Below are positions 145 to 16,972 of a stretch of 56,825 nucleotides of DNA, one piece after another. Position numbers and translations under genes: made by a program. The stretch lies in the NCBI GenBank assembly GCA_028716225.1, contig JAQUQE010000010.1:1-56825 (forward strand). Direction: 5' to 3'. This DNA is from Dehalococcoidales bacterium (GTDB lineage Bacteria; Chloroflexota; Dehalococcoidia; Dehalococcoidales; UBA5760). The notes under the pieces are model-generated. The model did not search any database and was not told the DNA's origin. It saw only the letters and a list, made by a program, of their open reading frames with translations. Position 1 is the first letter of the stretch; each line of letters opens with the position of its first letter.

Positions 145-251
145 CCCTGAGTTGTCGTTGGACATAGAGGAGCTATGAATTACCGAGGAATATTTGATAC
201 TCAATTCAGGTATAATAGGAGACCTTTTACACGAAATAAGCTTCTGTTGGC

Positions 252-767: not shown

Positions 768-940
768 AGAACCACCAATTCACATTGAGCGCTAACTAGC
801 TACGAGATATGCTCAGTTCTAGTAGTCCAAGCGTAGTATAAGCTTGACAGATGTGCTAGATGTCAACTAAGAAGTCCTACACCTCCCGCTATTTCTGTTA
901 ACTGAGGTACGGAAGAAACTTGAGTTTATCAGGGTAGAGG

Positions 941-1240
941 TTAGAGTTGTAAGATATTATCGTCGTATTTATCTAGCTCCAAAGCGCTATATGTTCGATC
1001 ATAGGCTTCTCTAGCTAGCTCAACTCTGTCTTCACTACTCATCCTACCAGAATATTGCCACTGCCTAAGATGGTTTCGCTGAGATTCGATCTCTTTTGAA
1101 AGGCGCTGCTTTAAAAGGCGCACTTGTTTGGGCTTCATTTTTTGGAGCTTGTCTCCGAAGACGTCCTTGAGCATATATTCTGCAGCACGATCGTATCTTC
1201 TAACTTCGATAGAAAAAATGGCGTCATCATAATCGCTCAT
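941..1240 (-). CDS. Hypothetical 99-aa charged protein
   Basis: This small, highly charged, probably helical protein has no family I recognise. It has a run of basic residues in the middle (KPKQVRLLKQRLSKEIESQR) that could form a coiled coil. A GGGTGGCTTAGG stretch precedes the ATG, and an extended -10 promoter element sits about 30 bp upstream, both supporting expression. It lies between another small unknown gene and a recombinase remnant, so it probably belongs to the accessory island. Nothing in the sequence indicates an enzymatic role. Confidence 0.5.
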   Translation of the reverse strand: MSDYDDAIFSIEVRRYDRAAEYMLKDVFGDKLQKMKPKQVRLLKQRLSKEIESQRNHLRQWQYSGRMSSEDRVELAREAYDRTYSALELDKYDDNILQL

Positions 1241-1272
1241 CCTAAGCCACCCATATCATTTTTTACGAACCT

Positions 1273-1281
1273 ATTATACCA
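1273..1281 (-). promoter_or_regulatory. Extended -10 promoter element for the 99-aa gene
   Basis: On the minus strand the sequence reads TGGTATAAT, a perfect extended -10 (TGn plus TATAAT). No good -35 is visible 17 bases upstream, as is usual for extended -10 promoters. The start codon of the 99-aa gene lies about 30 bases downstream. Confidence 0.45.
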
Positions 1282-1403
1282 TAATAGAGTTATGGCTGTT
1301 CCGCTTGACAATAAATAGAGTACTCTAGAAAGTAACCAGTGAAAAGGGGGGAACCTTGCCATGGATGGCGCAACAGAAATCAGCTCATAGATATCGAGCA
1401 TAT

Positions 1404-1505
1404 CATGAGGCTGGGGGATGGGAGAGCCTGGATATAGTGGTGAGGTATACGAGGTCAGTGAGGTTTGAGGAGAGCTTGAGGGTGTATGGGGGGATGGAGA
1501 GATAG
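1404..1505 (+). pseudogene. C-terminal remnant of a tyrosine recombinase/integrase
   Basis: The plus strand here encodes a 33-residue open segment ending in TAG. It contains GGWESLDIVVRYTRSV and then FEESLRVY, which closely resembles the C-terminus of XerD/phage-type tyrosine recombinases (GGW-SLxMVxRYTRSV, with the catalytic Tyr in RYT). No upstream frame supplies the rest of the catalytic domain (no Arg/His boxes), so this is a decayed fragment. A 92-aa minus-strand ORF over the same bases is only its shadow. The fragment marks past integration near the defence island. Identification is by motif recognition. Confidence 0.6.
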
Positions 1506-1575
1506 CCGCCGCCATAGTTCTTGCGAATCAGCGGACACCTAGAATACTATACCCGGATTATCAAGTTCCTGAATG

Positions 1576-3915
1576 CTACCTTGGTAAGCTTTGGAGCAAC
1601 TTCTCCATTCCCGAATCGTAATGCCAAGGGGCATCAGTGAATTCCCAGAATTGTGCTAGACCTGGCAAACGAATATGGCTGCCAATGACAATCCACTTAC
1701 CAGCGTGCAACTGGTACTTCTTAAGTTGACCATAAGCCTGTAAGCGTCTCTCGAAGTCTTGTGGGCTGTGGTCTCGGCACGTCATAACAGTAATCCCTAT
1801 GTCCGTGCCAGAAAGCGTAATGGTGAAGTCATGTATTCGCCCATCCCTTTCTGAGCTATGCCTAGCCCTTTCGAACCATTTGGCGATTTTCTTCCGCGTA
1901 TCAAAACTGATATTAAGAAGTACATTTATAATCCTGCAATACCCCAGCGGATGCTTGCTATCTAGTTCAAGTATCATCTTTCTGAAAGTCTGCGGCATAC
2001 ACTGCGTAGGCTTAGGCGCAGGTGTAGTCCTTTCACCGGTTTTGTACATAAAGTAACTGTCCATGTCTGTTGTATAGGACAATAACTGAAAATGATCAAT
2101 GCCAGACTCTTGCAAGTCCTCAAAATATAGTCCCTCATGCAAGTAATATCCTAGCCAGTCAAGTTCATCGAATGCCTCGATATTTGCAAGCTCATTGATC
2201 CTTAGACGCTGATTCAGATAGTGTATGAACTGGCTAGGAAACTCAATCAATTCTGCTATGACCTTTAGATCAAGAAGATATACGGCCCATGGGAGTCGAC
2301 CTTCTCCAAATACGCCTAATTCGGCCACCTGATAGAGAACGGGGGCAAAAGTATCTAGCGGCTCTAAAGTAATCGTTACCAAAAAGTTGGTATCTAGATT
2401 CTGTTTGTCGATTCTCAATTCTTGACCATCTGGTAGCTGAAATGCCGGCTGTGGATTTATAGTAATATACTTGTCAGCACGAATCGCCTGTGCATGAGAC
2501 TCTACGATGAGTTTCCTAATGTCGGACACCATTCTATCTGGAGCGCCTCTTTTGGTGGGTTCCGTAAGAACCCCGGCCTTGCCCTCAACGAGAAATGCAT
2601 GTCTGTCATACAGGACCAAACCGTCGAGATCAGTATCTTTAAGTTGGTCATTTTCTTCAACTCTATATCTGAGGTTGCGATAATCCTTGCCGTATTTAAC
2701 AATCTCGGATATGAGCCTAACTCCTTCAGAAACAAGGTAATTAGCACGATGCTTCTGAAATTTCTCCCATACGCTATAGTCTTTATTGATTGCCTTTGCC
2801 GATGCCGGATTCAGTAATTCTTCGATGGTAGCCTTCGCACCCCACAACAGTAAGGCTGTAGCTGCACAAATGTAACGGCCGCCATGGTGGACAATAGGTC
2901 TTAGTCGGAGAGGATGGGTGGGACTCGGCCAAACGAATTCAGGGGACACTTCACCGAAACCGATTGAGAAACAAGCAAGGAACCTTCCTGTCGTTTCCAC
3001 ATCTCTTCCTGATTCCTTTGCAAGCTCCTCAGCGGTGAAAGAGAACGTTGCACCCAGTCCGAAGAATACCCAAGCAGTTAGCATATGCTTGACCCTCTTA
3101 AGCATTTTCTTTTCAGATAGCTTAGCAAGCCCAGATAGCATCTCTTTAGGATATTTGCTGTCATTCAGTTTACCTTGACTGAATAGCCTAACCTCCCTAC
3201 GAATCTCTTTCTTGGATTCAATGGCCTGCTTTCGTCTTTCAGATAGCCGCCCATTCATTATTCTCTCGATAGCCTCAATGAACCCAAGAACATCTTCAAT
3301 CTCAAAGCCGAGATAAGCCTTCATCCAATTACCTACCGGCTCAAATGAAAAGAGGGCTCTCAGAACCTCTGTCTGTTGGTGAGAGTACCCTGGATTTCTA
3401 ACCGTCAGATTACGGGAAAAAGACTGATATTGGAATTTCTCCAAAAGCGTGGGGGGGTTCGGGTTATCTGGATTGATGTGAATCGCTGCCGCATAGAGAA
3501 GTGTATCGTTAAGTATTCCTTTTACTGTGTTCTGAATGTTTCCCAAGTCGAGAGGAGCTTGTTCCGAAGGATTCCCACCTTCTGAGAAAGCATCCATTAA
3601 ACAAAGGAGAGTCGTATACTCTACAACAAACTGCAGTCCCTCATGGGAATACTCTTTGTATTGTTCTGGGTTAACAAACAAATTCTGGAATACCACGTTG
3701 GCAATGACATCAAATGAGTTATAAGCCTTAAGCTGCCTGCGTAGCTGATCCGCTCTTTGAGGAATGGTCTTCTCAAGCTCAGGAACCATAGAGGCAAAGG
3801 CAGTGAGAATCTCTTTGTGCTCGGCTTCAGAGCGGCGAGTATCAGTATAGATGAAACGCCCGTGTCTCTCTATACGAATTCCTTTACCAACAATGGCTTC
3901 GTGCTTCTTGTTCAT
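1576..3915 (-). CDS. Large protein with PD-(D/E)XK nuclease-like motif
   Basis: This roughly 779-aa protein has no full-length family I recognise. In its middle it has a hydrophobic strand with DLDGL, then about 12 residues later LVEGKAG. That is a D...E-G-K arrangement typical of PD-(D/E)XK or NERD-like nuclease cores (about residues 431-446 from this start). The region before it is helical, and the C-terminal third contains further alpha/beta sequence. The start is uncertain: ATG at 3915 begins MNKKHEAIVGKG, an upstream ATG at 3972 is also in frame, and neither has a strong SD. It lies downstream of the DUF499 ATPase on the same strand, separated by about 270-400 bp, so it may be an accessory effector of the defence operon or an independent gene. 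Nuclease activity is inferred. Confidence 0.6.
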   Translation of the reverse strand: MNKKHEAIVGKGIRIERHGRFIYTDTRRSEAEHKEILTAFASMVPELEKTIPQRADQLRRQLKAYNSFDVIANVVFQNLFVNPEQYKEYSHEGLQFVVEYTTLLCLMDAFSEGGNPSEQAPLDLGNIQNTVKGILNDTLLYAAAIHINPDNPNPPTLLEKFQYQSFSRNLTVRNPGYSHQQTEVLRALFSFEPVGNWMKAYLGFEIEDVLGFIEAIERIMNGRLSERRKQAIESKKEIRREVRLFSQGKLNDSKYPKEMLSGLAKLSEKKMLKRVKHMLTAWVFFGLGATFSFTAEELAKESGRDVETTGRFLACFSIGFGEVSPEFVWPSPTHPLRLRPIVHHGGRYICAATALLLWGAKATIEELLNPASAKAINKDYSVWEKFQKHRANYLVSEGVRLISEIVKYGKDYRNLRYRVEENDQLKDTDLDGLVLYDRHAFLVEGKAGVLTEPTKRGAPDRMVSDIRKLIVESHAQAIRADKYITINPQPAFQLPDGQELRIDKQNLDTNFLVTITLEPLDTFAPVLYQVAELGVFGEGRLPWAVYLLDLKVIAELIEFPSQFIHYLNQRLRINELANIEAFDELDWLGYYLHEGLYFEDLQESGIDHFQLLSYTTDMDSYFMYKTGERTTPAPKPTQCMPQTFRKMILELDSKHPLGYCRIINVLLNISFDTRKKIAKWFERARHSSERDGRIHDFTITLSGTDIGITVMTCRDHSPQDFERRLQAYGQLKKYQLHAGKWIVIGSHIRLPGLAQFWEFTDAPWHYDSGMEKLLQSLPR

Positions 3916-4277
3916 GTCCGTGTCTATTATATCATCACTTATAAACAACAGCGTATTGGACTTTACGGACATATTAATCAAGCAAAAGGCACTCACATCT
4001 TTGCTAACCCTGTCGACGAATCTAATTAAGACAAAGATCAAGCTTTAGTAAGCGCTGAAATACTAAATCCTGTATTATTTGTACAAGGCTGAGGTAAGTT
4101 ATGGTTTGGGAATTTTGGGGTGTGGTTTTGGACTAGGGGGTAGATACTTTGGAGAGGAGGGGCAACAACAGTCAGGTTGTGTGATAATCAAGAGAGAGAT
4201 ATGCGGCCTGACCTTATGCACAGAACAAGCGATTGTTGATGACCTGTATCTTGACACCACTGGATCCGTTATGGTAA

Positions 4278-4297
4278 TCCTCTTACTATCAAGAGGA
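4278..4297 (-). terminator. Hairpin just downstream of the DUF499 gene
   Basis: A 7-bp perfect stem (TCCTCTT with AAGAGGA, 6-base loop) lies 14 bases beyond the stop codon of the DUF499 gene. There is no following T-run, so it is a weak terminator candidate or an mRNA 3'-end stabilising hairpin. The rest of the 4042-4310 gap shows no convincing gene. Confidence 0.3.
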
Positions 4298-4310
4298 CAG
4301 GACTGAGTCT

Positions 4311-6860
4311 TTAGCTCTCATCAACCTCAATGCCCAACTGCCGGAATGATTCCTTTATCTTATCTTCGTAGTCTTGTTCTGATATTTCCCCGTCGGCAGC
4401 AAGCAGTTCTATCTCCAAGGAGTCAAATTTACTCTGTAGTAGGTTCATGACCCCCATGATTTGTGCCACCTTCCCCTTCGGTACTCGAAACTTTAAGCGA
4501 ACTTTACCTTTTCCCTGGACAACTGATGTGTCCTCTCCCCATTTTGCTGGCGCCTCTTTGATTCCGGATGCAGGGGTTGGCTCTAGAGGCATGGTACCCG
4601 TACCCTTGCCGGAAACCGCTTCCTCTCTCTGTTTTTGGTCCTGACAAATAGTCTCCTGTATCAATACCTCACTCCCGGAGAAAGCCACGGTTGGTGATTC
4701 CCGGAAGTAGTGGCACAACGGCTTATCATTCTGCAGTTCACCTAGACCGAACAGCCCCGACCGAACGCCTTCAACAATGCCCTGTTCCAGAACTGACCGG
4801 TCCGTTAGTCTTGTTTCCCCAGGCGTCCTGAGGGCAGACTGGTAGATTTGCCGGGTAGAAGCATAGCTGTTGCTTGACAGGAACTTCTCCTTGATTACCA
4901 GCGGCGCAATCCTCGCCAGTATTTCTCCCTCGGAACGAAGCTTCTCAAAGATCTCCCCATCAAGTGCGACCAGTTCACCATATGTTGGTATACCGAGGTC
5001 AATCTCTTTTGTTCCTTCTCTCGAAGGTATGGATACTATCCTATACAGCTTGCGAATTGACTCTCTAACGTCTCCTTCGGCCGTTTTTAATTCCTTTCTC
5101 ACATCTTTCTTCTGTTCTTCGCTCAGGTTAAGGCTCGGATCACGCTCAATATACTCATAAGCGATTTTGCGTTTTATGGTATTGTTGAAAGCGTTTCTTT
5201 CTAATTCCGAAGGGGACAGGAAAAACAAGGTATTCCGATAGGTACGCGGCGTTTGGCCTTTATTCTTAAGCATGTTGTTCATCGCCATCTTGTTTTCTCT
5301 TTTTAGGATGACCAGCTTCAGTTCCTCTGAATCAGGAATATTGCTAGGGTCTTCTTCCCACACATAGCATCTTAGTCTGCTACCTAAGATGCTTTTGCGC
5401 AGCAACTCTAGCTCCATTTGGACAACCTTCTCTTCGCGGATGTTCTCCATATTAGTCAGCAGAATGCGATTTAAATTAGGCTGGTTTCTGAAGAAGTACT
5501 TCTCCCCAACACTCTGAAGGTAAAAAAGCTTGCCCTTAAGTTGTTCAACGGCCTCGGCGACGACGCTAGCCGGGTTATCAGTAGTCGTCGCACTTCGCTT
5601 CACTTCTCCAAGGGTTGCCCCATGTTCTTGCCCACCAGAAAACGAGTAAAGGAATGTGGCAGCAGCCGAACGAGTGCCCAATCTCAGCCCCTGATAAGAT
5701 TTACCCAAAGACAGGTCAACTTTGGAAGCTCCGGCGGTTACGTCGATTATATCGGCCGCAAGAACACTGTTGAATTCCGAACCAATGTGTTTCAGTAGTT
5801 CCTGCCTGATTTCCTGATTAGCCAGATCGAAATCAGCCAAGCTGATATAAGGCCTGCTGGATGTTCTTAGAGAATGAATTACTAGGGAAAGTAGTCGGAG
5901 CACGCCTCTAGTTCGTTGGAAGGTAGGAAAACTACCCCAACGATGATACAGTACATCTACGACTTCAGGCATAAAGGGATATGAGTCTAGAAATCTGTCA
6001 CGGTATTCGCTCGGCTGTGAACCTGCCGGGAATATTTCCTCCTTCTCAGCATATTTCATGAATTCAGCCACAATCCTTCGGACATTTTGTTCATCAATGC
6101 TCATGAACAGCCGACGCCTGATTATTTTGGTTATCTCGTTCTCCTGCACTGGGGTATAAATCCGCTCAATCCTACCTGCCACCTTTTGCAGTTGCTGGTA
6201 TAGTCTTTCTGCACCTTCGTCGTAGTGCTCTATGATGCTGGCCGGCAGGGTTACTGCCAAGCAGGTTCGCTCAAGAGTGCTGGCTGCCTCTGTCAGTTCT
6301 TGCATGAAAGCCATCGTCTGGGCGGCCAGTGTGCTGTCACCCACTCTCACACCCGCTGCCTTGGTCACATACTCCAGAACCTCATCCATGAGAATGAGAA
6401 CTGGCTGGTTATTGGAAAGCAACGCCCGTATAGCTTCTTTGCCCGGGGCAACCTGGCCTGTGAATCTGCCAGTCTTACCGGTAAGCCGTTTCTCTAGCAC
6501 ACCCCAGAGCGTTTCTTGTGTGCTTAGTGCAGTGCCAACTATTGCGACCTTCTTCGCCTCCCACTCAGCTGCCTTATGGTACATGGCAATCAAAGCGTGG
6601 GTCTTACCACCACCGAAGGGTGTTTGTATCTGGATAACTGGATCGCCACCGGCTCCTTGTAGTCGCTTCTCTACGACTGTGAGCAGGTTTCTCAGTCCTT
6701 CGGTGAGGTAAGTTTTCTTGAAGAAGGTCTCAGCATCTTTGTATTCGTCCGCACCCCGCTGCTGGGTTACCTCCCAGAGGTCAGCAGCAAAGACATCCAT
6801 AGTCAGTCGACCTTCAAGGATATCTCGGTGGGGAACTGCGATAGTATGAAACGCTTTCAT
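4311..6860 (-). CDS. Anti-phage-associated DUF499-type ATPase
   Basis: This 849-aa P-loop ATPase has the DUF499 signature. The N-terminus (HTIAVPHRDILEG) is followed by Walker A TPFGGGKTH at about residues 80-88 and Walker B LILMDE at about 155-160. The C-terminal part contains a Pro/Gly linker and a final conserved-looking domain. ATG at 6860 shares one base with the methyltransferase stop (TGATG), with a GGGAGG Shine-Dalgarno 8 bases upstream, so the two are translationally coupled. DUF499 proteins recur beside DUF1156 methyltransferases and SNF2 helicases in defence islands. The likely role is ATP-driven action within that system, but the mechanism is unknown. Family assignment is strong; the defence role comes from context. 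Confidence 0.85.
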   Translation of the reverse strand: MKAFHTIAVPHRDILEGRLTMDVFAADLWEVTQQRGADEYKDAETFFKKTYLTEGLRNLLTVVEKRLQGAGGDPVIQIQTPFGGGKTHALIAMYHKAAEWEAKKVAIVGTALSTQETLWGVLEKRLTGKTGRFTGQVAPGKEAIRALLSNNQPVLILMDEVLEYVTKAAGVRVGDSTLAAQTMAFMQELTEAASTLERTCLAVTLPASIIEHYDEGAERLYQQLQKVAGRIERIYTPVQENEITKIIRRRLFMSIDEQNVRRIVAEFMKYAEKEEIFPAGSQPSEYRDRFLDSYPFMPEVVDVLYHRWGSFPTFQRTRGVLRLLSLVIHSLRTSSRPYISLADFDLANQEIRQELLKHIGSEFNSVLAADIIDVTAGASKVDLSLGKSYQGLRLGTRSAAATFLYSFSGGQEHGATLGEVKRSATTTDNPASVVAEAVEQLKGKLFYLQSVGEKYFFRNQPNLNRILLTNMENIREEKVVQMELELLRKSILGSRLRCYVWEEDPSNIPDSEELKLVILKRENKMAMNNMLKNKGQTPRTYRNTLFFLSPSELERNAFNNTIKRKIAYEYIERDPSLNLSEEQKKDVRKELKTAEGDVRESIRKLYRIVSIPSREGTKEIDLGIPTYGELVALDGEIFEKLRSEGEILARIAPLVIKEKFLSSNSYASTRQIYQSALRTPGETRLTDRSVLEQGIVEGVRSGLFGLGELQNDKPLCHYFRESPTVAFSGSEVLIQETICQDQKQREEAVSGKGTGTMPLEPTPASGIKEAPAKWGEDTSVVQGKGKVRLKFRVPKGKVAQIMGVMNLLQSKFDSLEIELLAADGEISEQDYEDKIKESFRQLGIEVDES

Positions 6861-9556
6861 CACAAAAGCCTCCCTTGGGTAGCTTCTTTCCTTACCTCTT
6901 CTCGCAGACGTTCTCTGCCAGCTAGAAAACCGTCTAGTAGTTTTTTCTCCTTGCTCTCAATAGGTAGGGTCTCCGAGGCTGCCTGGGCTACCCTGTAGAA
7001 TGCCTCGCCGGTACCGTAACCGGACTTGTGCAGCAGCTTGACCATTTCACTTCTTCTTCCCTTCTCCCAGAGCAATAGGCTACTGTGCAAAACGTCAATC
7101 ATCTCTGTCGAGTTCTTTAGATCTTCAACATGGCGTTCTTGGGGACCCGCTACCCTGATAAACTCCTTGTCTTTGCGGATAAAACCGCCCCGGTTCCATT
7201 CCTTGGACAGGTCAATGCTGCAACTCTGAGCCAGTTTTCTCGCTTCGTCAAATTCTACTCTTGCCTCACCGTAGTTCCATCGGTAGAGCACATAGAAACG
7301 GGTTAGGTCGGAAATCTCACCGGAAAAGCCGTTGTGCAGTATCTGGCGCACAGCGTAGTCCGTGGCAATCTTGCGGACATCCTGCAATAGTCTATCGGCA
7401 CGAACGATGTTTCCCTCATAGTCCATCACTTTTCCATACTTGCCAAAGACTTCAATTGCCGAGCCAATAGCAGCGATAAAAAAGTCGGCGCCACTAATGC
7501 CCTCTTGCCAAAGCCTCTCCAGTTTTTTACTTAGATGCTGCTTCAGTTCTTCCTGTACATTATTGTAAAAGCCGGTGGGCTGACGTTCCATTTTGCGAGC
7601 TACAATGTAGATTGAAGAGGCGAGTGATGCAGTTTCATTAGCATTCAATCTAGCCTGCATTTCCGTCCTCAATGGCCATGCCCCTGATACAATGAGACCA
7701 GAGTCCAACAGTGAATTGATAAGCGACTCCCAACCCTTGATTGACTTGTGGGCGTACACAATTGTAGCTATGCCGTTCGGTTTCAGTACCCTATAAACGT
7801 CTTGAAACGACTTCTGAAGCATGGACTCAAAAAAATCTTTGGCGGAGTTTGCGCCGCCTTGCCTATAGGGATCCGAAACGATTTCATTGGATTTTGGTAT
7901 TACTGGCGTTGAGAGCAATGCGGGATGTAAGTGTCCGATTGTTCTCTTAAGCCAGACATAAAAGAAATCGGAAAGATTCGCATAACCGACATTATCATAG
8001 TATGGAGGGTCAGTAAACACAGCGTCAAAATACCCATCTGGATACGGCAACGAAGTGGCTGAAGATTGGTTAACATTAGCCTGAAAGGTCGATACACGAG
8101 AGAAGTGGTCGATGACTCTTGAAATCCATCCTAATGCAGAATTCCAGTCTCCAGTAGCTCCACTCCAAGGAAGTAGTTCAAAATAATCCCACACCATTTG
8201 CAGTGCCTGTCGTGTAAAGGTATGACCAACGAATTCGCCATTCGGGACCCATGTTGTCAGGGTTGAGTTATAATCTTCTAACCTGTCTGCGGCAAAGCTC
8301 AAGTATGTGGCTAATGCTCTCGCGTAATCCTCGTCATAGCCGTTTTCAAGCATCTTTTTATATGCTGATTTGACCTTGTCCCCCAAAGTAACCAACGCCA
8401 ATTGCTGGCGCGGATTGAACAATTCTCCCCAAGTCTTCATTCCGTACATTGGAGGACGATCCACATCGTGACAAGGTGCCGGAATCATCTCGTCAGGTAT
8501 GGGGTCTATTCCCCATTCTTTAATCAGTTTCGCCTGCTTCTCTTTTAAATACTCCTTCCCCTCTAGGAAAGTCTGGACATCTTCGTCTGTGGCAATCCGG
8601 TATGCCTTACCATTAGTACCAACCTTATTAGTGACTACCGCCACCATCCTCTGCCCGGCTTTGCCTCCCCGAAAAAGACTTCTGGTTGTTTTGTCATCAA
8701 CCACGCTGCCACACACAGGGCAGTTTACCACTGCCCGTGAGACCGTACCATTTTCCGGGTTGAAGTCCTTCGGCATAGGCTCATGATCAGTACCCACTAT
8801 TTTGAACCTGACCTCTTTACCAGCCACATAAGGGAAAAGAGACACCTTCTTCTTGTCTTTTCTAGCCAACCAGTATTGGCGCATAAGAGGAATGCCAGTG
8901 CCGCAGGCTGGATTTTGGCAGGGGATTGACCTTGCCCAAATGTAGCCAACCGGGATGCTGCCGTCCGGTTCCAGCGGATAGAACCTACCTATTTCCTCCT
9001 TAGTCTCCTTCAGTACCCAGTCGCCCCATTTCTTCACATCTTCCAACAGGGGATTAACTGTCTTCTCGGTCTCAGTCCAGTCATCTCCTTTTACCTTTGT
9101 GGGCTTGCCATATTTCTGTGGGTACTCAAGGGTGCATTTTAAAATGAGTGTGGCTACAGGGTTGTAATCACTGGCATAGGTTTCACATCCCAAACGTAAA
9201 GCCTCCAGTGGTATGGCACCACCGCCGGCAAAGGGGTCTAGCACTTTCGGCGGCTTACCACCATTGGCTTTAAGAATATCCTCCCTAGCTTTCTGAATCA
9301 TACTCTGGTTAAGAGAGTTCTCCCATTTGGAGAAGTCAATAATGAATTGCCGTGTTTTGTTCCATTCTTCAACGTTTTTCGGAGCCGGGATTAGTGCCGC
9401 ATAGTTCGTTGCCCGTGATGAAGCTAGGGGGCGCCTTGCCCACCAGATATGGAGAGTGGAGATATGTCCATGGCGGATACTCTTTTCCTTTGCCGATTCC
9501 ACACTGACTTCTTTGACAGGGAAGCTTTCTTCAATAAAACGGCGGTTATTGTCCAC
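6860..9556 (-). CDS. DUF1156-type DNA (adenine) methyltransferase
   Basis: This protein of about 898 aa opens with the DUF1156 signature (RRFIEESFPVKEVS, then HIWWARRP). SAM-binding motif I LDPFAGGGAIPLEA follows at about residues 106-119, and the catalytic TDPPYYDN lies at about 515-522, indicating an amino-methyltransferase. Paired cysteines (CQNPACG at about 213-219 and CPVCG at about 279-283) suggest a zinc-binding insert. GTG at 9556 is preferred because GGGAGG lies a few bases upstream and family members begin near this point; ATG at 9574 is possible. It overlaps the helicase stop by 11 bases and is coupled to the ATPase. The probable role is marking host DNA in the defence system. Confidence 0.88.
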   Translation of the reverse strand: MDNNRRFIEESFPVKEVSVESAKEKSIRHGHISTLHIWWARRPLASSRATNYAALIPAPKNVEEWNKTRQFIIDFSKWENSLNQSMIQKAREDILKANGGKPPKVLDPFAGGGAIPLEALRLGCETYASDYNPVATLILKCTLEYPQKYGKPTKVKGDDWTETEKTVNPLLEDVKKWGDWVLKETKEEIGRFYPLEPDGSIPVGYIWARSIPCQNPACGTGIPLMRQYWLARKDKKKVSLFPYVAGKEVRFKIVGTDHEPMPKDFNPENGTVSRAVVNCPVCGSVVDDKTTRSLFRGGKAGQRMVAVVTNKVGTNGKAYRIATDEDVQTFLEGKEYLKEKQAKLIKEWGIDPIPDEMIPAPCHDVDRPPMYGMKTWGELFNPRQQLALVTLGDKVKSAYKKMLENGYDEDYARALATYLSFAADRLEDYNSTLTTWVPNGEFVGHTFTRQALQMVWDYFELLPWSGATGDWNSALGWISRVIDHFSRVSTFQANVNQSSATSLPYPDGYFDAVFTDPPYYDNVGYANLSDFFYVWLKRTIGHLHPALLSTPVIPKSNEIVSDPYRQGGANSAKDFFESMLQKSFQDVYRVLKPNGIATIVYAHKSIKGWESLINSLLDSGLIVSGAWPLRTEMQARLNANETASLASSIYIVARKMERQPTGFYNNVQEELKQHLSKKLERLWQEGISGADFFIAAIGSAIEVFGKYGKVMDYEGNIVRADRLLQDVRKIATDYAVRQILHNGFSGEISDLTRFYVLYRWNYGEARVEFDEARKLAQSCSIDLSKEWNRGGFIRKDKEFIRVAGPQERHVEDLKNSTEMIDVLHSSLLLWEKGRRSEMVKLLHKSGYGTGEAFYRVAQAASETLPIESKEKKLLDGFLAGRERLREEVRKEATQGRLL

Positions 9557-12500
9557 TTTTGCCTCCCTTGGCATCTATCTCCCTGAACGGTATCACGTAT
9601 CTGACCACTTCGATCTTTTCCTCCGGCTCCAGGTTCTCCGCTGGGTTTTGGATGATGTAAAGCCGTAGTTTGGTCTTCACGTTCATTACGGCATAGAGAT
9701 AATACTCGTCCCCGAAACGCTTCGCTTTGAACCACTCATTTTGAGTGAGAGCTACCGCGCCGTTTCTAGCTCTGGCTTTCACCTCGATATAGCGCATCAG
9801 ACCTTCGTTATCCTTAGAGCGGATATCAAAGCCCAAATTCTGCGCAGAGACATCTTCAGGGACTCTATTGTTTTCGGTCTCAAACGCCATGGTAAATTCC
9901 ATACCGAGACGCTCGACCTCTGGGTCACTTTCCATTGTCTCGCCCGTTGTAGTGGCTGGCTTTATACGAATGATACCCCGGAAGCGCGGCATGCTCATAG
10001 TAAGGCTCTTCTCCTTATTCAAATGGTCTTTGAGGTCGATAAGAGCCCTCTCGTACCTTTCCTTGGTCTCCTCTTTGTTCCTAATTACAAGGTCAACATT
10101 CTCCCCTTGCTCTTTGCGGGCATAGAGTGAGATAAGGTCACCATCAAGCTTTACAATAAGGTACTCCAGTGACCTGATACCATATTTTTCTTTAATTTCA
10201 GTTTGTCTCTCCCGTTCCCTCGTTATCTCTTTCTTGTATCCCTCCAGGCCAGTAATAACATTGCCTGTGACCAGCTTCTTAACTGCCTCGGAGTCGCAGG
10301 TTTCTGTACAGATATTAGTGCCTTCAGCCAAGTCCCAGATGACCGCCGGAGAGATAGGTCTCACCTGTTTGCCGTCTGTGTAGAAAGCAAAAAGGCGTTT
10401 CCCTGCGATAGTGCCGGTGCCATCCTTTATCTCTCCCTCGTAAAAAAGGACATAGCCATCCATTTTACCATCAGGGTCAGTAAATATTGCCCCCTGCGTT
10501 AGCGACTCCATATAGTTTCCTTCAATCCAGAGCATGGTGGCTTCAAAGAGTGGGTGTCCGAATGAGACAAACTCGGCATCTTGGTTCTTGAAGGCGATAT
10601 CCTTGTCAAAGGCCACCTTAGGATACCGTTTCACCAGTTCTCCGTAGCTTCTTCTGAAATTGTCTTCTTCAGCGATCTTACGTATACTGAAGGGCACGGA
10701 CTCTATTTCCAGGAAACCCCCATCGCGCTCCCTAAATTTGCCGCCAGCTCTGGTGAAGGCGCGTCTGAAATATTCACTCGTATATTCCGGGATGAGCCGA
10801 TATTCACGAGCCTGCTGTGCCATTTCCTTGATTCGTGTGTAATCGATATAACGGGTCGCTAGACTTTCGCCCAGGTTCTCCTTGACCTCCGCGATATAGT
10901 CCTCATCCACCGTGATATCAAGCTCTTTAAGTATTTCATCAATATTCCTGGCGTTAGCCGCCGCCTCAACCAGGAACTGAGACAAGCTTCTGTTATAGAG
11001 GACTTCGCTTAGTACGTCAAAAACCTTATCACTTCCCAATGCATCCTTAATTTCGTCCAATTTCTGGAACAGTTTGGTCAGTACGCGCCCCTCTCGCGTA
11101 TCTTCGGCAACAAGGTTGCATACATAGACCTCTTTTTGCTGACCATAGCGGTGTACCCGCCCCATGCGTTGCTCTAGGCGGTTCGGATTCCACGGAATGT
11201 CATAGTTAATCATCAGGTGACAAAACTGTAAGTTGATGCCTTCACCGGCGGCCTCCGTAGCCACCAGCACCTCGGTTTCGTTTTTGAACACTCTTTCCGC
11301 CTTGACGCGGTCTTCCAATTTCATGCCGCCGTGAATGGTGTTTACATTATATCTCCAGGTCTTGATCTTCTTATCCAGGTACTCTAGGGTATCTCTGGAT
11401 TCCGTGAAGATAAGGATTTTCTTGTCTTTTGCTTCCGGATATCTATTCCGTAAGTCATGCAAGGCTCCTTTTAGCTCCTGCAGTTTTACTTCTGTTTCAC
11501 TTTGAATAATACCTTTGGCTTGCTCGATGAACTTGTCTATAGTGGCAATCTCTTTTTCCAGTTCCTCCCTGTTTTCAGCAACACTCAGGGTCTCCCAGAT
11601 TTCTTCCTGTTTCCACCTCTCCTCTTCACTCAAGTCTTCAATAGCGGTAAGATCAAAAGTGCTCTCTGCCGCCTCACCCCTTTCTACGGGACCCTTAAGG
11701 AAGTCCTCCAAGCGTTTCTTCCTTCGCTCAAGAGACTTTAGCAAGGCGTAGGTGCTGGAAGCTAACCGACGCTGCAAGATAACCAGAGCAAAGGCCACAT
11801 TTCTACGCTTATCCTTGGTGAGAGCCTTGTTATACTGGGTATTAACGTACTTTGACAGTTGGTTATATAGGTCCTTTTCTTTGGGAGAGCGTACTCCCAG
11901 ATCAAAAGAGATGGTGCTGACGTGGCGAGGCAGGAAAAGTGGTTTCCCCTCGAAGTCCTTGAGGTCTTCCTTCACGCGGCGGATAAACAAGGGGTTGTCT
12001 TTATTTCGTATGGATTCTTGGAGCATTTCATTTGTAGCGAAGAACCCAGGTTCCAGTAAATCCAAGAACAGTCTGAAGTTTTCCGGGTCTCCCTTATGTG
12101 GAGTGGCTGTGAGAAATAGCATGTGTTCGGTATTGCGGGAAAGCGCTTCACCTAACTGGTACCGGTCGGTTTTATCCAGCTTGTCTCCCCATCGCTGGGC
12201 GCTCATCTTGTGGGCCTCATCCACAATTATAAGGTCGAAGCGTGCGGCGGTGATAGACGGCAGGATATCTCCTCGCTTGGCGAAGTCGATGGAAGTAATT
12301 ACCTGGTTTTCTCTGAGCCATACGTTTTCTCCATACAAGGCATCAAGAACCCCTCTGTCGATGACCACAAACCTCTCTTCGAATCTCTCCGCCAATTCTC
12401 GGCGCCATTGATCTTTAAGATGTCCAGGTGATATGATGAGAATCCTTCTTACCAGATAACGGAGCTTCATTTCCTTGATGACTAGCCCGGCCATAATGGT

Positions 12501-12893
12501 TTTGCCGGCTCCAGGATCGTCAGCAATAAGGAAGCGAATCCGTGGCAGCTTCAGAATATGGCCGTAGACTGCTTCTATCTGGTGAGGCAGTGGGTCCACT
12601 TTCGAGGTGTTCATGGCAAGTAGGGGGTCATACAAGGATGCAAATCGATAGCGGATGGTCTCCAGTGCCAGAAAAATCTTCCAGTCTTCCTCAGAAAAAA
12701 GAGTTCCCTCACCTAAGATAGTGAGTTTGTGAAATTCATCACGCGGAATAATCTGGTCAACATGATCTCTGGAAATGGTAGTCGCCCCGACTACGTGTAC
12801 ATACTCGCCTTCTTCTTCAACAAGTTTTATTTCAACAGGTTCAGGCCATACAGGTCCTCTGATGATACTGCCGGCTTTCAGCTTATCAATCAT
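9546..12893 (-). CDS. SNF2-type helicase with C-terminal DUF3883
   Basis: This 1115-aa superfamily 2 DNA translocase carries Walker A DDPGAGKT (125-132), VDEAH (224-228), and the C-terminal helicase motifs GEGINLQF and RLEQRMGRVHRYGQQ. The last 110 residues match DUF3883, including YIEVKAR, which resembles a restriction-endonuclease-like E-x-K core. It is the first large gene of the operon. Its ATG overlaps the small ribbon-helix-helix gene by 8 bases, and its 3' end overlaps the methyltransferase. The architecture is like DISARM DrmD and other defence-island SNF2 proteins. Translocation on invading DNA is inferred. The overlapping coding frames on the opposite strand are shadows. Confidence 0.9.
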   Translation of the reverse strand: MIDKLKAGSIIRGPVWPEPVEIKLVEEEGEYVHVVGATTISRDHVDQIIPRDEFHKLTILGEGTLFSEEDWKIFLALETIRYRFASLYDPLLAMNTSKVDPLPHQIEAVYGHILKLPRIRFLIADDPGAGKTIMAGLVIKEMKLRYLVRRILIISPGHLKDQWRRELAERFEERFVVIDRGVLDALYGENVWLRENQVITSIDFAKRGDILPSITAARFDLIIVDEAHKMSAQRWGDKLDKTDRYQLGEALSRNTEHMLFLTATPHKGDPENFRLFLDLLEPGFFATNEMLQESIRNKDNPLFIRRVKEDLKDFEGKPLFLPRHVSTISFDLGVRSPKEKDLYNQLSKYVNTQYNKALTKDKRRNVAFALVILQRRLASSTYALLKSLERRKKRLEDFLKGPVERGEAAESTFDLTAIEDLSEEERWKQEEIWETLSVAENREELEKEIATIDKFIEQAKGIIQSETEVKLQELKGALHDLRNRYPEAKDKKILIFTESRDTLEYLDKKIKTWRYNVNTIHGGMKLEDRVKAERVFKNETEVLVATEAAGEGINLQFCHLMINYDIPWNPNRLEQRMGRVHRYGQQKEVYVCNLVAEDTREGRVLTKLFQKLDEIKDALGSDKVFDVLSEVLYNRSLSQFLVEAAANARNIDEILKELDITVDEDYIAEVKENLGESLATRYIDYTRIKEMAQQAREYRLIPEYTSEYFRRAFTRAGGKFRERDGGFLEIESVPFSIRKIAEEDNFRRSYGELVKRYPKVAFDKDIAFKNQDAEFVSFGHPLFEATMLWIEGNYMESLTQGAIFTDPDGKMDGYVLFYEGEIKDGTGTIAGKRLFAFYTDGKQVRPISPAVIWDLAEGTNICTETCDSEAVKKLVTGNVITGLEGYKKEITRERERQTEIKEKYGIRSLEYLIVKLDGDLISLYARKEQGENVDLVIRNKEETKERYERALIDLKDHLNKEKSLTMSMPRFRGIIRIKPATTTGETMESDPEVERLGMEFTMAFETENNRVPEDVSAQNLGFDIRSKDNEGLMRYIEVKARARNGAVALTQNEWFKAKRFGDEYYLYAVMNVKTKLRLYIIQNPAENLEPEEKIEVVRYVIPFREIDAKGGKSGQ

Positions 12894-13050
12894 GACTGCT
12901 GCTCTCCTGGGTGAGAGAAATACCCTGAACTTGTTGGTTCAGCTCATTTTCGATTACTTCCGCCACCCAATCCTGTATTGTCTTGTCATACTCTGCAGCA
13001 CGAATCCTCACCTTTTTATGGAGCCCTTCTGGTAAGCGGATATGAATCAT
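12886..13050 (-). CDS. Ribbon-helix-helix transcriptional regulator (54 aa)
   Basis: This 54-aa protein starts MIHIRLPEGLHKKVRIRA and continues with IQDWVAEVIENEL. That is the classic beta-strand plus two-helix plan of Arc/HicB/CopG-type ribbon-helix-helix DNA-binding proteins. The ATG overlaps the stop of a 12-codon leader ORF (ATGA), and the 3' end overlaps the helicase start by 8 bases, making it the first real gene of the defence operon. It lacks a good SD of its own, so coupling to the leader probably drives its translation. Autorepression of the operon is the simplest role and is inferred. An antitoxin role is less likely because no toxin gene sits beside it. Confidence 0.75.
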   Translation of the reverse strand: MIHIRLPEGLHKKVRIRAAEYDKTIQDWVAEVIENELNQQVQGISLTQESSSHD

Positions 13051-13085
13051 TCTGGTCTTTGTCTGGTTGTGTTATTGCATTTCAT
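13047..13085 (-). CDS. 12-codon leader ORF coupled to the RHH gene
   Basis: A tiny ORF (MKCNNTTRQRPE) begins with ATG preceded by GAGGGCGT, a usable Shine-Dalgarno. Its TGA overlaps the ATG of the ribbon-helix-helix gene in the ATGA arrangement. It lies in the leader downstream of the operon promoter. It probably serves to load ribosomes for translational coupling rather than to make a functional peptide. Confidence 0.4.
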   Translation of the reverse strand: MKCNNTTRQRPE

Positions 13086-13121
13086 ACGCCCTCGTTTCTA
13101 AGAGACGTAGCTTTTGCTCCA

Positions 13122-13150
13122 AATATATCTGAGATACGGATCAGAGTCAA
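13122..13150 (-). promoter_or_regulatory. Promoter of the defence operon
   Basis: On the minus strand, TTGACT (13150-13145) and TATATT (13127-13122) are separated by exactly 17 bases, a near-consensus housekeeping sigma promoter. The expected transcription start is near 13115, giving a leader of about 65 bases before the ribbon-helix-helix gene. Confidence 0.6.
13126..13136. promoter_or_regulatory. Candidate operator overlapping the defence promoter
   Basis: TATCTGAGATA is a perfect 5-1-5 palindrome that overlaps the -10 element and spacer. Its position suits an operator for the autoregulated ribbon-helix-helix protein. Binding is inferred, not shown. Confidence 0.35.
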
Positions 13151-13245
13151 GAGGGAGTAAAGGAAACAAGGCAAAGAGCCAGCGTGATTTAACAACATCA
13201 TAATGTGCAAGCAGATGTTCGGAAATACGGAAAATCATTGTCAAC

Positions 13246-13300
13246 TTCCAAATAAATCGCTGGCTTGGAACTTGCATTTCTTGGTAGTATGTAGTATAGA
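13246..13300 (+). promoter_or_regulatory. Inverted repeat and weak promoter upstream of the TIGR04255 cassette
   Basis: TTCCAA (13246-13251) and TTGGAA (13265-13270) form a spaced inverted repeat. Just downstream, TTGCAT (13272-13277) and TATAGA (13295-13300) are 17 bases apart, a weak promoter for the plus-strand cassette. The divergent arrangement with the defence operon could allow joint control. Confidence 0.3.
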
Positions 13301-13347
13301 TAACGTAGCTCTGACTCGGCAGATTTTAATAATTGGAGCCAACGACC

Positions 13348-14100
13348 ATGGCTATTCTAGAGGTTTTTCCTAATCCTACCGTCAAACAGGTAATTTTCCA
13401 GATTACCTATCCAAACCTGTTTTTTTTAGAAACGAAGATTGGCGATTTGCAGATGGCTATCATGAGCAGATTCCCGGAATCAAAAATTGCCTACCGTCGA
13501 TTCGTCTTTGGTGATATCGGGCCAGATGTTAAGCCCGAAGACCTTCCAAAACTTGAAAAGAGCGGCACTATTTGGCAATTCATTAATCCCGCTAAACAAG
13601 TTACCCTGAGTGTTACAAGTAGTTCCTTGGATATCGTGTCCGCTTCTCACAAGACTTATAGCCAGGGGACTACAGACAACTTTCGGGAAATCATCGACTT
13701 CGTCCTAAATGCTTTCTTGAAATTAGTGTCAATCCCAACCATCAATCGCATTGGACTGAGGTACAGAGATGAATGTCCACTGCCCCTCAAAAATACGGAA
13801 ACCCTCAAGTCCTACTACAATTCAGTATTTCCCACACACCGATTCAATCTAGAGGATGCCATCGACATGCTCTTTAAGGTCACCATCGATAAGAAGGACC
13901 ATTCTATTGGTTACATTGAGAGTCTCCATAAGGCCGACACGTCATATAAACTGATTCTAGACTTTGATGGCTTCGCACCTAATGTCAATGCATCGGACTT
14001 GATGACTATGCTAGATAAGCTTCATAACTCGATTTCACAAGAGTTCGAGAATACAATAAAAGAACCTGTCTACGAATATATGCGTCAAAAGGGGACGTAA
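13348..14100 (+). CDS. TIGR04255-family protein
   Basis: This 250-aa protein resembles the sporadically distributed TIGR04255 family: an N-terminal NPTVKQVIFQITYP strand, then FQ/LQ-type aromatic patterns, and a middle NRIGLRYRDECPLP segment (the IGLRY-N-like signature). ATG at 13348 has GGAG 10 bases upstream, which is preferred over a TTG at 13333. It heads a three-gene cassette, with the next ATG one base after its stop. The family is patchily distributed, often beside small partners in accessory islands, and has no assigned function. Family recognition is by eye. Confidence 0.7.
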   Translation: MAILEVFPNPTVKQVIFQITYPNLFFLETKIGDLQMAIMSRFPESKIAYRRFVFGDIGPDVKPEDLPKLEKSGTIWQFINPAKQVTLSVTSSSLDIVSASHKTYSQGTTDNFREIIDFVLNAFLKLVSIPTINRIGLRYRDECPLPLKNTETLKSYYNSVFPTHRFNLEDAIDMLFKVTIDKKDHSIGYIESLHKADTSYKLILDFDGFAPNVNASDLMTMLDKLHNSISQEFENTIKEPVYEYMRQKGT

Positions 14101-14101
14101 A

Positions 14102-14353
14102 ATGGTTTTGAACAAAGATAGCTCCCAAATAAACTACAACGATGTGACAACGGAAAGTACTGGTAGTCTACCCAACGCCCAATGGAAGACTGTGATTTGC
14201 CCATTCGGCAAGTACGAAATCACTGTCGTCTTGACAACAAGTGGTGAGTTCGTTGGTATAGCTGAAGTTGGACTCAGGCATGACTTTTTATCTTACAAAC
14301 AGAGGGTAACTCCCCAAGGCTACCACGATGTCGCCGACCTCTATCGTGAATAG
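14102..14353 (+). CDS. Hypothetical 83-aa protein of the TIGR04255 cassette
   Basis: This small protein is predicted to be mostly beta (WKTVICPFGKYEITVVLTTSGEFVGIAEVGL), starting one base after the TIGR04255 gene stop, which implies co-translation. I recognise no family. Its size and place between two larger unknowns suggest a partner or adaptor subunit. Its C-terminus ends in DVADLYRE. No catalytic motif is visible. Confidence 0.6.
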   Translation: MVLNKDSSQINYNDVTTESTGSLPNAQWKTVICPFGKYEITVVLTTSGEFVGIAEVGLRHDFLSYKQRVTPQGYHDVADLYRE

Positions 14354-14362
14354 CCCTTAGCT

Positions 14363-14992
14363 ATGTTTTACGAAGAAGATCCACAGCAAACACTAAGATT
14401 TGGTGATATAGTGCGAGGTTACGTTTCTGGAACCCCCGCAGTCAACGAACCCAATCTAGACCCTAACCAATCTATATGCACATTGAAGCTGGCTTTTCCA
14501 CTTTACTATGCAGTTATGACTCCTTGCTGCTCTATCGGTGAAGGAACGATTTCATTAGCTCCACTGCTTCCAATCAAATACAATTTTTTTCAGAACCCAT
14601 ATTTTGTCCAAGACCTTACCAATATCAATAGGACCATGAGCCCTGAGCAAGCTGTAGCACCCGAAGTCTGGAAAGGCTTCCCGGAAGAGGTTAAACAGGA
14701 ACGACTAATGGAGGGGGATACGTACGCACTCGTTGCATTCTTTATTTATGAAAAGCACGCATTACTGGCTGAGTACCCCTTAGGTAAGAAGACCACAATC
14801 AACACAGGCTACTACTTAGTTGATTTTCGAACCATATACCAGCTCGAATGTAAGAAAGTACAGAATCCAAAAGATTGTCCGTGGGAGTCCAAGATACTGG
14901 AAATGACTATTCCTGCTAGAAACGAACTTCGAGACAAACTCGCCTCGTACTATCAAAAGCGCCCTAAAGAAGACTTGGTAATGGCTGAGTGA
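14363..14992 (+). CDS. Hypothetical 209-aa protein of the TIGR04255 cassette
   Basis: This third gene of the cassette encodes LRFGDIVRGY near the N-terminus and AVMTPCCSI followed by SLAPLLPI in the middle. This resembles a family seen in accessory loci with the pattern GDI...V(V/L)(S/T)xxCDI...APL, although here the CDI is CCSI. Two adjacent cysteines at the centre could bind metal. No SD is evident before the ATG, so translation probably depends on the upstream gene 9 bases away. The function is unknown, and the family resemblance is tentative. Confidence 0.6.
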   Translation: MFYEEDPQQTLRFGDIVRGYVSGTPAVNEPNLDPNQSICTLKLAFPLYYAVMTPCCSIGEGTISLAPLLPIKYNFFQNPYFVQDLTNINRTMSPEQAVAPEVWKGFPEEVKQERLMEGDTYALVAFFIYEKHALLAEYPLGKKTTINTGYYLVDFRTIYQLECKKVQNPKDCPWESKILEMTIPARNELRDKLASYYQKRPKEDLVMAE

Positions 14993-15367
14993 CAGACAAA
15001 CAGACTCGCGTGCACAATTCTGCAAACCAGCGTAAAGCCAGACACAACAATTTGGCGGCAGAATCATTCCAGCGGCTAAGATTAACATGGAAATAAGGGT
15101 ATTTAGTGGATTTGAAGAAGCTGTAACTTCCTGAACTGGCTTGATAGAGCCTCATCACTGCTCCGATGCCTCCAAAGGAGCTAGGAAACAATTTTATTGC
15201 TCTTGTACCTTGAACCTCAGTGAACCACCCCCTTCTACAGGAAACAGGTCACCAAACAATTCGAGTGCTCGGTTTAAATATTCCCTCTACGAGTTGCACC
15301 CAATAACGAGCCAGAATATTACGTAACCATTAGTCAGTACATCAAGTCCAAGCCCTGTCGAGTCTTG
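14993..15367. other. Gene-free stretch after the TIGR04255 cassette
   Basis: I see no convincing ORF with a ribosome-binding site, RNA gene or terminator in these 375 bases. Short frames on both strands lack start signals. It may be decayed island DNA. Confidence 0.3.
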
Positions 15368-15541
15368 TCACAACGCTACTTGCTGAATAATCGTGCCGAA
15401 ACCTATTAGAACCAGAGAAACAATAAACGGTGCCTTATATCTTTGGCGCTGCTGGCGTGTGAACGAATGAAATTGTGCACATAGGCCAATGACGACACCT
15501 AAGAAAGCGATGGCCATACCCCATCGTACTACAGTCTCCAT
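15368..15541 (-). CDS. Small two-helix membrane protein (57 aa)
   Basis: This unlisted short gene starts with ATG behind a perfect AGGAGGTGA Shine-Dalgarno 2-3 bases upstream. It encodes METVVRWG, then a hydrophobic segment (MAIAFLGVVIGLCAQF, about 9-24), a basic loop (RQQRQRYK), and a second hydrophobic segment (FIVSLVLIGFGTIIQQ, about 39-54). That predicts a helical hairpin membrane protein with the basic loop on the inside. I recognise no family. The strong SD and membrane design make a chance ORF unlikely. A small stress or toxin-like membrane peptide is possible but not supported by a partner. Confidence 0.6.
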   Translation of the reverse strand: METVVRWGMAIAFLGVVIGLCAQFHSFTRQQRQRYKAPFIVSLVLIGFGTIIQQVAL

Positions 15542-15573
15542 AAGTCACCTCCTAGACACGGACAGTATTCATA

Positions 15574-15738
15574 TTAGTACTTAATCAAGGATACTGTGGT
15601 CACCATACCATACTTGTCACCCACTCCACCAGCCGCTGTACAAACCATCGGAAGGTTCGGGAATCGATTCGCCAAATGTGATATCATACCAACAGGTGCG
15701 GAGAAAGATAATACGCCAGGATTCAATTCAATATGGAA
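15574..15738 (-). pseudogene. Open segment, possible gene remnant upstream of the small membrane protein
   Basis: A 54-codon open stretch encodes ELNPGVLSFSAPVGMISHL and ends GGVGDKYGMVTTVSLIKY before TAA. It has coding-like composition but no proper start codon with SD; an upstream in-frame TAA lies just before it and TTG is the only candidate start. It ends 32 bases before the small membrane protein start. I read it as the C-terminal remnant of a lost gene or a small unknown ORF. Confidence 0.3.
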
Positions 15739-16127
15739 TTAGACTGGTAAACTTCAACTTTTTCTTTGCCCGGTGGCCAAGGGAAAGTTGCTGAAAAAAT
15801 TCTCGGCGACCATGCCAAACCTTTTCGACGCTTGTTAAGAGTTCTAGGTATCGTCCCCCTAAGCCCACCGAATTCAGCATTTCGCTGTGTGTCCACCTAC
15901 CAAGATATCCCCTTTCTCGTACTGACCGGTGGGATTCCCTAAGCCTGTATTTATGGACATCAGTTTTGCAACCTGTTCCCCGTGCTTATAGACAAACGGC
16001 AGGGAAACGTGCCAGCGCAGTATTCTGAGACCGGAACAGCAGATTCCCCTAACCAGGCACTAAATGGTCTGACAACAAGCCCCTCTGCATTTAGCGCCGT
16101 ATTCATATATAAGGAGGTATACCTAAA
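15739..16127. other. Intergenic stretch before the methyltransferase
   Basis: Nothing convincing is seen here apart from the Shine-Dalgarno AAGGAGGT at about 16110 that serves the methyltransferase gene. A 28-codon minus-strand frame starting at 15960 has no SD and is not called. Confidence 0.3.
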
Positions 16128-16898
16128 ATGAACAGATGCGAATTGACACTTCCCAAAATAGAAGCCACCCTGGAACAAAGTGAGGAGTGGCTATGGGTTA
16201 GTGATAACGGTTTCAATAAAAGACGGATTCGACTCCACGACTATGCCGAAATTTATGACATACCCGGACTGTACGAAAGGGTGTTCTGCGATATGCTGAA
16301 GTCCCGGTCGTGGGAGGTAATACCCAGCATGCTGTCTTATGAGATAAATAAGTCAAGCAAAAATGAGGGTAGTCTCAGGGTGCTTGACTTCGGCGCCGGG
16401 AATGGAATGGTAGGAGAAGCTTTATTGAGCCAGATAGAATGCGAGCTGATGATTGGCGTTGATATTATACCCGAAGCCAGAAAGGCTGCAGGTAGAGACC
16501 GTCCGTGTGTTTATGATGAATACCATGTTATCGACATGAGCCAGATAGAACCTGCTACCCGGAAGAAGCTGGCGGACTTCAGGTTCAACTGCCTCGTCAC
16601 CGTAGCCGCACTGGGTTTCAGCGATATACCCACCGGCGCTTTTGTGGAAGCCTTCAACCTCATTCAGAATAAAGGCTGGATAGCGTTTAACATCAAGGAC
16701 AAATTCTTAACCAACCGGGACGATACCGGTTTTGCCCGACTGGTCAAGAGGATACTTAACAATGATATCCTCGATGTACGTTTCGAGCAAAAATACCGGC
16801 ACAGGTTCTCAATAGATGGGAAAGAACTATACTACAGTGCAATTGTAGGCAAGAAGAAGCGAGATATAATATTCGACGATTTTAACCCGGGGGATTAA
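16128..16898 (+). CDS. Class I SAM-dependent methyltransferase
   Basis: This 256-aa protein has motif I LRVLDFGAGNGMVGEAL at about residues 84-100 and an acidic motif II GVDIIPEAR that binds the SAM ribose. This is a standard Rossmann methyltransferase of unknown substrate. A strong AAGGAGGT SD lies about 10 bases upstream of the ATG. It is followed by ahcY and metK on the same strand after 246 bp, so a link to the SAM cycle is attractive but the genes are not tightly packed. DNA methylation is unlikely because no DPPY/NPPY motif is seen. Confidence 0.8.
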   Translation: MNRCELTLPKIEATLEQSEEWLWVSDNGFNKRRIRLHDYAEIYDIPGLYERVFCDMLKSRSWEVIPSMLSYEINKSSKNEGSLRVLDFGAGNGMVGEALLSQIECELMIGVDIIPEARKAAGRDRPCVYDEYHVIDMSQIEPATRKKLADFRFNCLVTVAALGFSDIPTGAFVEAFNLIQNKGWIAFNIKDKFLTNRDDTGFARLVKRILNNDILDVRFEQKYRHRFSIDGKELYYSAIVGKKKRDIIFDDFNPGD

Positions 16899-16923
16899 GT
16901 CTTTTCAATCACAGTAGCCCGGG

Positions 16924-16972
16924 CCAGTACCATCCGGAAACACCCGGTGTACTTACTGGAGCCGAACCAGTA
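16924..16972 (+). promoter_or_regulatory. Alternative hairpins upstream of ahcY
   Basis: TACTGG (16954-16959) can pair either with CCAGTA at 16924-16929 (enclosing a CCGG/CCGG inner stem) or with CCAGTA at 16967-16972 (7 bp including flanks, 7-base loop). The two pairings are mutually exclusive. This could be regulatory, or an end-of-gene hairpin for the methyltransferase. It does not match the SAM or SAH riboswitch consensus that I know. Confidence 0.25.

Follow-up and report, generated by a model that had tools for sequence, protein, structure and literature searches.

Background

Hma was proposed in 2021 by Payne et al. as a candidate defence system in 26 phyla (PMC8565338), and in 2026 it was redefined by Rakesh and Krishnan as the type-1 BREX-Related (BR) system, which is related to type-3 BREX (PMC12839542). 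Type-1 BR consists of a DUF499 ATPase, a DUF1156 N6-methyltransferase and a SNF2 helicase, and in 79% of taxa the helicase has a C-terminal PD-(D/E)XK nuclease (PMC12839542). The arrangement of DUF499 and helicase-DUF3883 was noted already in 2013 (PMC3710099), and the phage-defence role of the helicase-nuclease was confirmed in a Halomonas relative by Liu et al. in 2024, as cited in PMC12839542.

Hma itself is known and common, and the added value of a further copy could lie in how restriction systems stay in check in a new host. The small regulators at or near the head of Hma appear to differ between copies and are hardly described for this system. Furthermore, a large family of NERD-type nucleases is a candidate accessory effector.

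Here we analysed a copy in a Dehalococcoidales bacterium, within a stretch of 56,825 nucleotides which we call the window. Judged from its sequence, the operon is a complete copy of the known Hma, that is, type-1 BR system. The novelty is modest and confined to the accessories, namely a small ribbon-helix-helix (RHH) gene in first position and, beside the operon, a separate nuclease gene that is rarely found. We are confident in reading the operon as a horizontally acquired and complete restriction system of this type, in which methylation would protect the host DNA, the ATPase would license a helicase-nuclease and the RHH protein would regulate its own operon.

Layout of the operon

An earlier note on this DNA described a complete four-gene operon, and all four reading frames were indeed found intact on the minus strand. 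The first one is the RHH gene (12886..13050, 54 aa), HicB/Arc-like according to Pfam HicB and a probable autoregulator. It is followed by hmaA (9546..12893, 1115 aa), which by PADLOC and Pfam encodes a SNF2/RapA-like helicase with a C-terminal PD-(D/E)XK nuclease, by hmaB (6860..9574, 904 aa, with an alternative GTG start at 9556), encoding a DUF1156 DNA methyltransferase of the N6-adenine type, and by hmaC (4311..6863, 850 aa, with an alternative ATG start at 6860), encoding a DUF499 BrxC-like AAA+ ATPase. The A-B-C gene order is kept in most of 45 Hma loci.

Regarding the overlaps, for which 8, 11 and 1 bases had been given, the first value is exact for the RHH/hmaA pair, but the other two hold only when hmaB starts at the GTG at 9556 and hmaC at the ATG at 6860. 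With the longest reading frames, the hmaA/hmaB and hmaB/hmaC overlaps are 29 and 4 bases. The two internal starts fit the close homologue L011 better (MKDKRFIEE and MKAFHTI, respectively). The single near-consensus promoter claimed in front of the operon also stood in part. A candidate sigma-70-type site, TTGACT-17-TATATT, with 10/12 matches does exist (13122..13150, minus strand) and its position around 70-100 bases 5' of the RHH start is sensible, but with 2 such sites in the region versus 1.2 in shuffles it is not above chance.

Identity of the system

Ten window proteins at or beside the locus were scanned with Pfam, NCBIfam and PADLOC, and the three large proteins matched both domain and Hma models. 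The PADLOC matches, graded by E-value and bits and not by model cut-offs, were HmaA (E 2e-201), HmaB (E 5e-139) and HmaC (E 1.2e-124). All the domain names previously given to these proteins found their Pfam matches: DUF499 (E 2.7e-35), DUF1156 (1.3e-23), SNF2 (5.2e-13) with Helicase_C (6.8e-27), and NOV_C, which is the DUF3883 family (7.2e-22). Among the ten proteins neither Pfam nor PADLOC matched PglZ, PLD/HKD or DUF3780, and BrxA had no match at the window locus; the same method does find PglZ in the other, BREX-type locus of this genome. Therefore, a fused nuclease being present and PglZ, PLD/HKD and DUF3780 having no match, the locus belongs to type 1 and not to types 2 or 3.

The locus had been likened to the anti-phage-associated DUF1156/DUF499/helicase neighbourhood. 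The kind is right and already has a name, Hma or BR, but the NCBIfam models called anti-phage-associated stay below their cut-offs, with 187 vs 1200 bits for DUF499 and 191 vs 1000 bits for DUF1156. The companion helicase model of this set is phospholipase-D-like, the phospholipD_antiphage model reached 143 bits against a cut-off of 1100, and by its appearance the NCBIfam trio would correspond to type 2, the sister subtype that bears HKD. A defence operon whose methylase marks self DNA, as had been proposed, fits the published Hma, or type-1 BR.

Comparison with named systems

Hma as first described (PMC8565338) has the same three proteins, in the same order and with the same domains. The window copy differs in that an RHH gene precedes the three and a NERD-type nuclease gene comes after them. 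HmaB was labelled m5C in that paper, whereas the DPPY motif of the window HmaB is of the N6-adenine type, in agreement with PMC12839542. With type-1 BR (PMC12839542) the locus shares the BrxC-like DUF499 ATPase, the DUF1156 N6-methylase and the SNF2-PD-(D/E)XK helicase, and neither PglZ nor HKD was found in it. A common type-1 BR variant bears HEPN on the ATPase, whereas Pfam finds none on the window HmaC, and that paper makes no mention of RHH regulators. The ATPase, methylase and helicase are also homologous to those of type-3 BREX (BrxC, PglXI, BrxHII, PglZ and BrxA). However, at the window locus neither PglZ nor BrxA is matched and the helicase has its own nuclease.

A DISARM-like logic had been suggested too. 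The locus does share with DISARM a DrmD-like SNF2 helicase, a methylase and a similar self-marking logic, and the DrmD models match the helicase strongly (PADLOC E 3.5e-154, NCBIfam 387 bits). However, the NCBIfam DrmD cut-off is 610 bits, and PADLOC gives the same helicase 670 bits as HmaA and 513 as DrmD. Furthermore, for none of the scanned neighbours is the best family DrmA, DrmB or DrmC, and the ATPase and the methylase are of other families, DUF499 and DUF1156 not being among the DISARM parts. We rejected DISARM membership because DrmA, DrmB and DrmC are missing among the ten scanned proteins and the DrmD cut-off is not reached. It is thus highly improbable that the locus is DISARM or a variant of it, and the comparison with Hma/type-1 BR and BREX takes its place.

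Conserved motifs and predicted structures

The catalytic motifs of HmaA, HmaB and HmaC are intact in the window copy and nearly invariant among the 46-53 aligned sequences. HmaA keeps Walker A, DEAH and E-V-K in the alignment. Its NOV_C/DUF3883 nuclease domain (residues 993-1081; 9651..9917, minus strand) contains D1023 and E1037-V-K1039, which are invariant among the closest relatives, and E-V-K is found in 42 of 46 sequences. Motif I (DPFAGGG) and motif IV (DPPY) of HmaB are conserved in 53 sequences. The alignment of HmaC shows conservation of its Walker A motif, FGGGKTH, and of the DE of Walker B.

In a sequence search of the PDB, RapA was the best match of HmaA; for HmaC and the RHH protein the search gave no relative. 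The AlphaFold model of HmaC has a mean pLDDT of 75 and is of low confidence from about residue 750. Its best PDB match with Foldseek was BrxC of BREX (E 1.2e-05), and VIA-align against the solved BrxC structures gave Z-scores of 17.6 and 16.7 over ~390 residues at 14-15% identity, whereas other AAA+ proteins did not exceed 12.3. On this model, the fold closest to the HmaC core is that of BrxC. Type-1 BR ATPases carry winged helices and an RRM/ferredoxin-like domain at the C-terminus (PMC12839542); residues 788-842 of HmaC show a strand-helix-strand-helix pattern, but with a pLDDT of about 45-55. The HmaA model is poor (mean pLDDT 58.8), its four N-terminal strands fitting a small barrel; the N-terminus of type-1 BR helicases was described as TUDOR, inactive REase and alpha+beta domain (PMC12839542).

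Proposed mechanism

BrxC binds dsDNA in an ATP-dependent manner and DNA promotes its oligomerisation (PMC13326643). As HmaC is homologous to this DNA-binding protein, it probably loads or scans on DNA. By analogy with its relatives, HmaB would mark the DNA of its own host by methylating adenines in a target sequence. HmaC, as an AAA+ ATPase of the BrxC kind with probable winged helices, would bind DNA depending on ATP and probably oligomerise on it, and the DNA-bound HmaC would then license the effector. This effector would be HmaA, which as a SNF2 translocase with a PD-(D/E)XK nuclease may track along the DNA and cut unmarked DNA, so that the window copy is expected to methylate its host and to restrict phage DNA. 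The RHH protein, probably coupled in translation to hmaA through the 8-base overlap, would most likely repress its own promoter, and this self-repression would limit the cutting proteins.

The RHH gene at the head of the operon

The sequence of the 54-aa protein, IRLPEGLHKKVRIRAAEYDKTIQDWVAEVIENEL, has the clean look of an RHH protein. Against Pfam HicB it gives E 3.5e-4 and 20.9 bits vs a gathering score of 21, thus the RHH call itself is marginal. The earlier note regarded such a gene as atypical at the head, and in agreement with this a Pfam scan of 90 ORFs lying just 5' of hmaA in 46 other loci revealed no RHH family. It is on the Pfam scan that this absence rests, the single-sequence phmmer scan being too weak by itself. 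With 0/46 other loci by Pfam, the RHH gene as a conserved Hma partner was rejected.

Could the 54-aa reading frame be the remnant of an antitoxin, or a small gene of no relation to the operon, rather than its regulator? The borderline Pfam score would agree with this, as would the fact that the protein has no relative in its own genome, only weak similarity at best in a plasmid search and no counterpart at the other Hma loci. Furthermore, no operator stands out above chance in the RHH/operon promoter region, where the direct repeats were reached by 23 of 200 shuffles and the palindromes by 191 of 200. However, the sequence is a clean RHH, and the gene is the first one in the same direction and overlaps hmaA by 8 bases. 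Besides, other Hma loci hold other small DNA-binding genes at or near the same place: HTH_17 near hmaA in L013 and L045 and a MarR-like gene in L078, whereas in L011, the closest relative, genes for an XRE-like protein and an IrrE-like peptidase lie between hmaA and hmaB. We consider the remnant or unrelated gene unlikely and prefer the regulator.

Since the promoter repeats are not above chance, autoregulation by the RHH protein is something that we infer, and there is a precedent for a small regulator at the head of such an operon. RptR represses a type I R-M island via promoter repeats (PMC12255303), and in the RptR-controlled islands the small single-domain regulator is likewise first in the operon. 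Nevertheless, RptR is all-helical, of another fold, and has proven operator repeats (PMC12255303), whereas the window gene encodes an RHH protein and is a putative regulator.

We also observed AlbA_2 (Schlafen) genes inserted between hmaA and hmaB in three loci (L066 6455-8899, L059 11357-13474 and L074 7907-9550), one of them fused to GmrSD_N. Insertions seem to be common in the hmaA-hmaB gap.

The downstream nuclease gene

Downstream of hmaC and on the same strand there is a NERD-type PD-(D/E)XK gene (1576..3915, 779 aa), whose membership of the operon is uncertain. Its reading frame is open from a TTG at 4041, which would give 821 aa, and it lies 270-396 bp downstream of hmaC, whereas the operon genes overlap. 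The protein alone has no Pfam match, NERD included, and its relatives do have NERD matches (best 1.2e-07), several of them with SEC-C motifs. In an alignment of 14 sequences of the family D431, L433, K446 and Q476 are invariant, and this order of D-x-L, (E/Q)-x-K and Q is the PD-(D/E)XK pattern. The separate nuclease-like gene suspected downstream is therefore present, but its tie to the operon is loose, and candidate accessory nuclease is the most suitable name for it judging from its sequence. As nucleases beside BR loci have already been described (PMC12839542), the principle of an accessory nuclease is known.

In the Gordonia plasmid pGKT2 a homologue (~23% identity) is located inside an Hma operon, between the helicase and DUF1156 genes, and overlaps the helicase gene by one base. 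This is the only other in-operon case that we saw. The pGKT2 homologue (L087 5464-7923) also shows a weak match, below the cut-off, to the GapS1 antiphage family (E 5e-4). When both accessories were surveyed beside the trio, the RHH gene appeared in none of the 46 other loci and a nuclease homologue only in pGKT2. No relative of the 779-aa nuclease was found by profile in the Hma loci examined, nor in ten genomes with closely related Hma. A search of 301 genomes of the phylum found it in 2, this one and another (G110) without Hma. Thus, the nuclease as a conserved Hma partner is not supported.

Two readings of this gene have to be weighed. It might be a true accessory, a back-up nuclease beside the fused one in a five-gene variant of Hma, in favour of which we can mention the pGKT2 operon with its one-base overlap, the same strand with no strong terminator-like site on it in the 270-396 bp between, the PD-(D/E)XK signature of the family and the nucleases known beside BR loci (PMC12839542). 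However, the wide gap contrasts with the overlapping operon genes, the distribution just given separates the nuclease from Hma, and the remaining plasmid relatives also stand apart from Hma; we therefore find a five-gene variant doubtful. It is rather probable that the nuclease and the TIGR04255 gene set described below are independent modules of a defence island and neighbours of Hma by chance. The co-occurrence of the nuclease with Hma is rare, several nuclease relatives are near unrelated genes of defence type, for instance AbiEii, AbiV, SAVED or HEPN genes, and positions 1-15864 have an island structure; the pGKT2 homologue within an Hma operon is the point against it. A more elaborate proposal would be a controlled five-gene Hma, with the RHH autorepressor in a variable regulator slot and the NERD-type nuclease as a second effector that this locus and pGKT2 would have recruited separately. 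The slot would hold HTH_17, MarR-like, or XRE plus IrrE-type peptidase genes in other copies. Taken jointly, this is somewhat less likely still than the simple five-gene variant, and we keep independent modules as the preferred reading.

Horizontal acquisition and distribution

The congeneric genome G008 aligns to the window, at 96.2% DNA identity, over 15865-21502 only. The alignment stops at 15865, so the congener lacks 1-15864 at that place, and this part, which carries the operon, belongs to an island. The right edge of the island is near 15865 and its left edge lies beyond the contig start, as the contig (C10) starts at window base 1. Since its AdoHcyase gene and that of the congener are 98% identical, the contig belongs to this genus. 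The own assembly has 2.64 Mb vs 0.8-1.3 Mb in eight congeners and is either unusually large or partly mixed.

Syntrophaceae, an archaeon and Acidobacteriota hold the nearest relatives of the operon. The HmaC tree joins the window to three Syntrophaceae-order sequences with 99% support, and both trees place L078 and L079, two loci of the same order as the window, away from it. An island specific to this genome, together with nearest relatives in distant taxa, means that the operon was horizontally acquired.

In the phylum, 79 of 400 genomes have relatives of HmaB, which are also present on 167 plasmid records, and HmaA at E 1e-50 is found in 2 of 151 near relatives, this genome included. In IMG/VR, searched for close relatives only, there were none of HmaB and none of the 1576-3915 nuclease, and phage records gave only distant methylases from Sulfolobus viruses. 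This patchy and mobile pattern is typical of defence genes and argues against a housekeeping role. A housekeeping context in related genomes would have spoken against the defence reading of the earlier note; an island, patchy presence and plasmids were found instead.

Neighbouring genes and other loci

At the contig end, the minus-strand genes 252-767 and 941-1240 encode proteins of 171 aa and 99 aa with no Pfam, NCBIfam or PADLOC family. On the other side, three genes on the plus strand (13333-14992) are divergent from the operon and encode a TIGR04255 protein (255 aa, E 7e-22) and proteins of 83 aa and 209 aa with no family. This gene set was not found beside other Hma loci, and the three genes may form a small module of their own within the island.

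Elsewhere in the same genome, contig C2 carries at ~219957-233968 (L083 5957-19968) a type-3-like BREX operon with genes for BrxA, PglZ, a BrxH-type helicase, a GmrSD/SspE-like protein, PglXI, a NucC/PD-(D/E)XK-like protein and BrxC. Thus, BREX and its BR sister system occur together in one genome.
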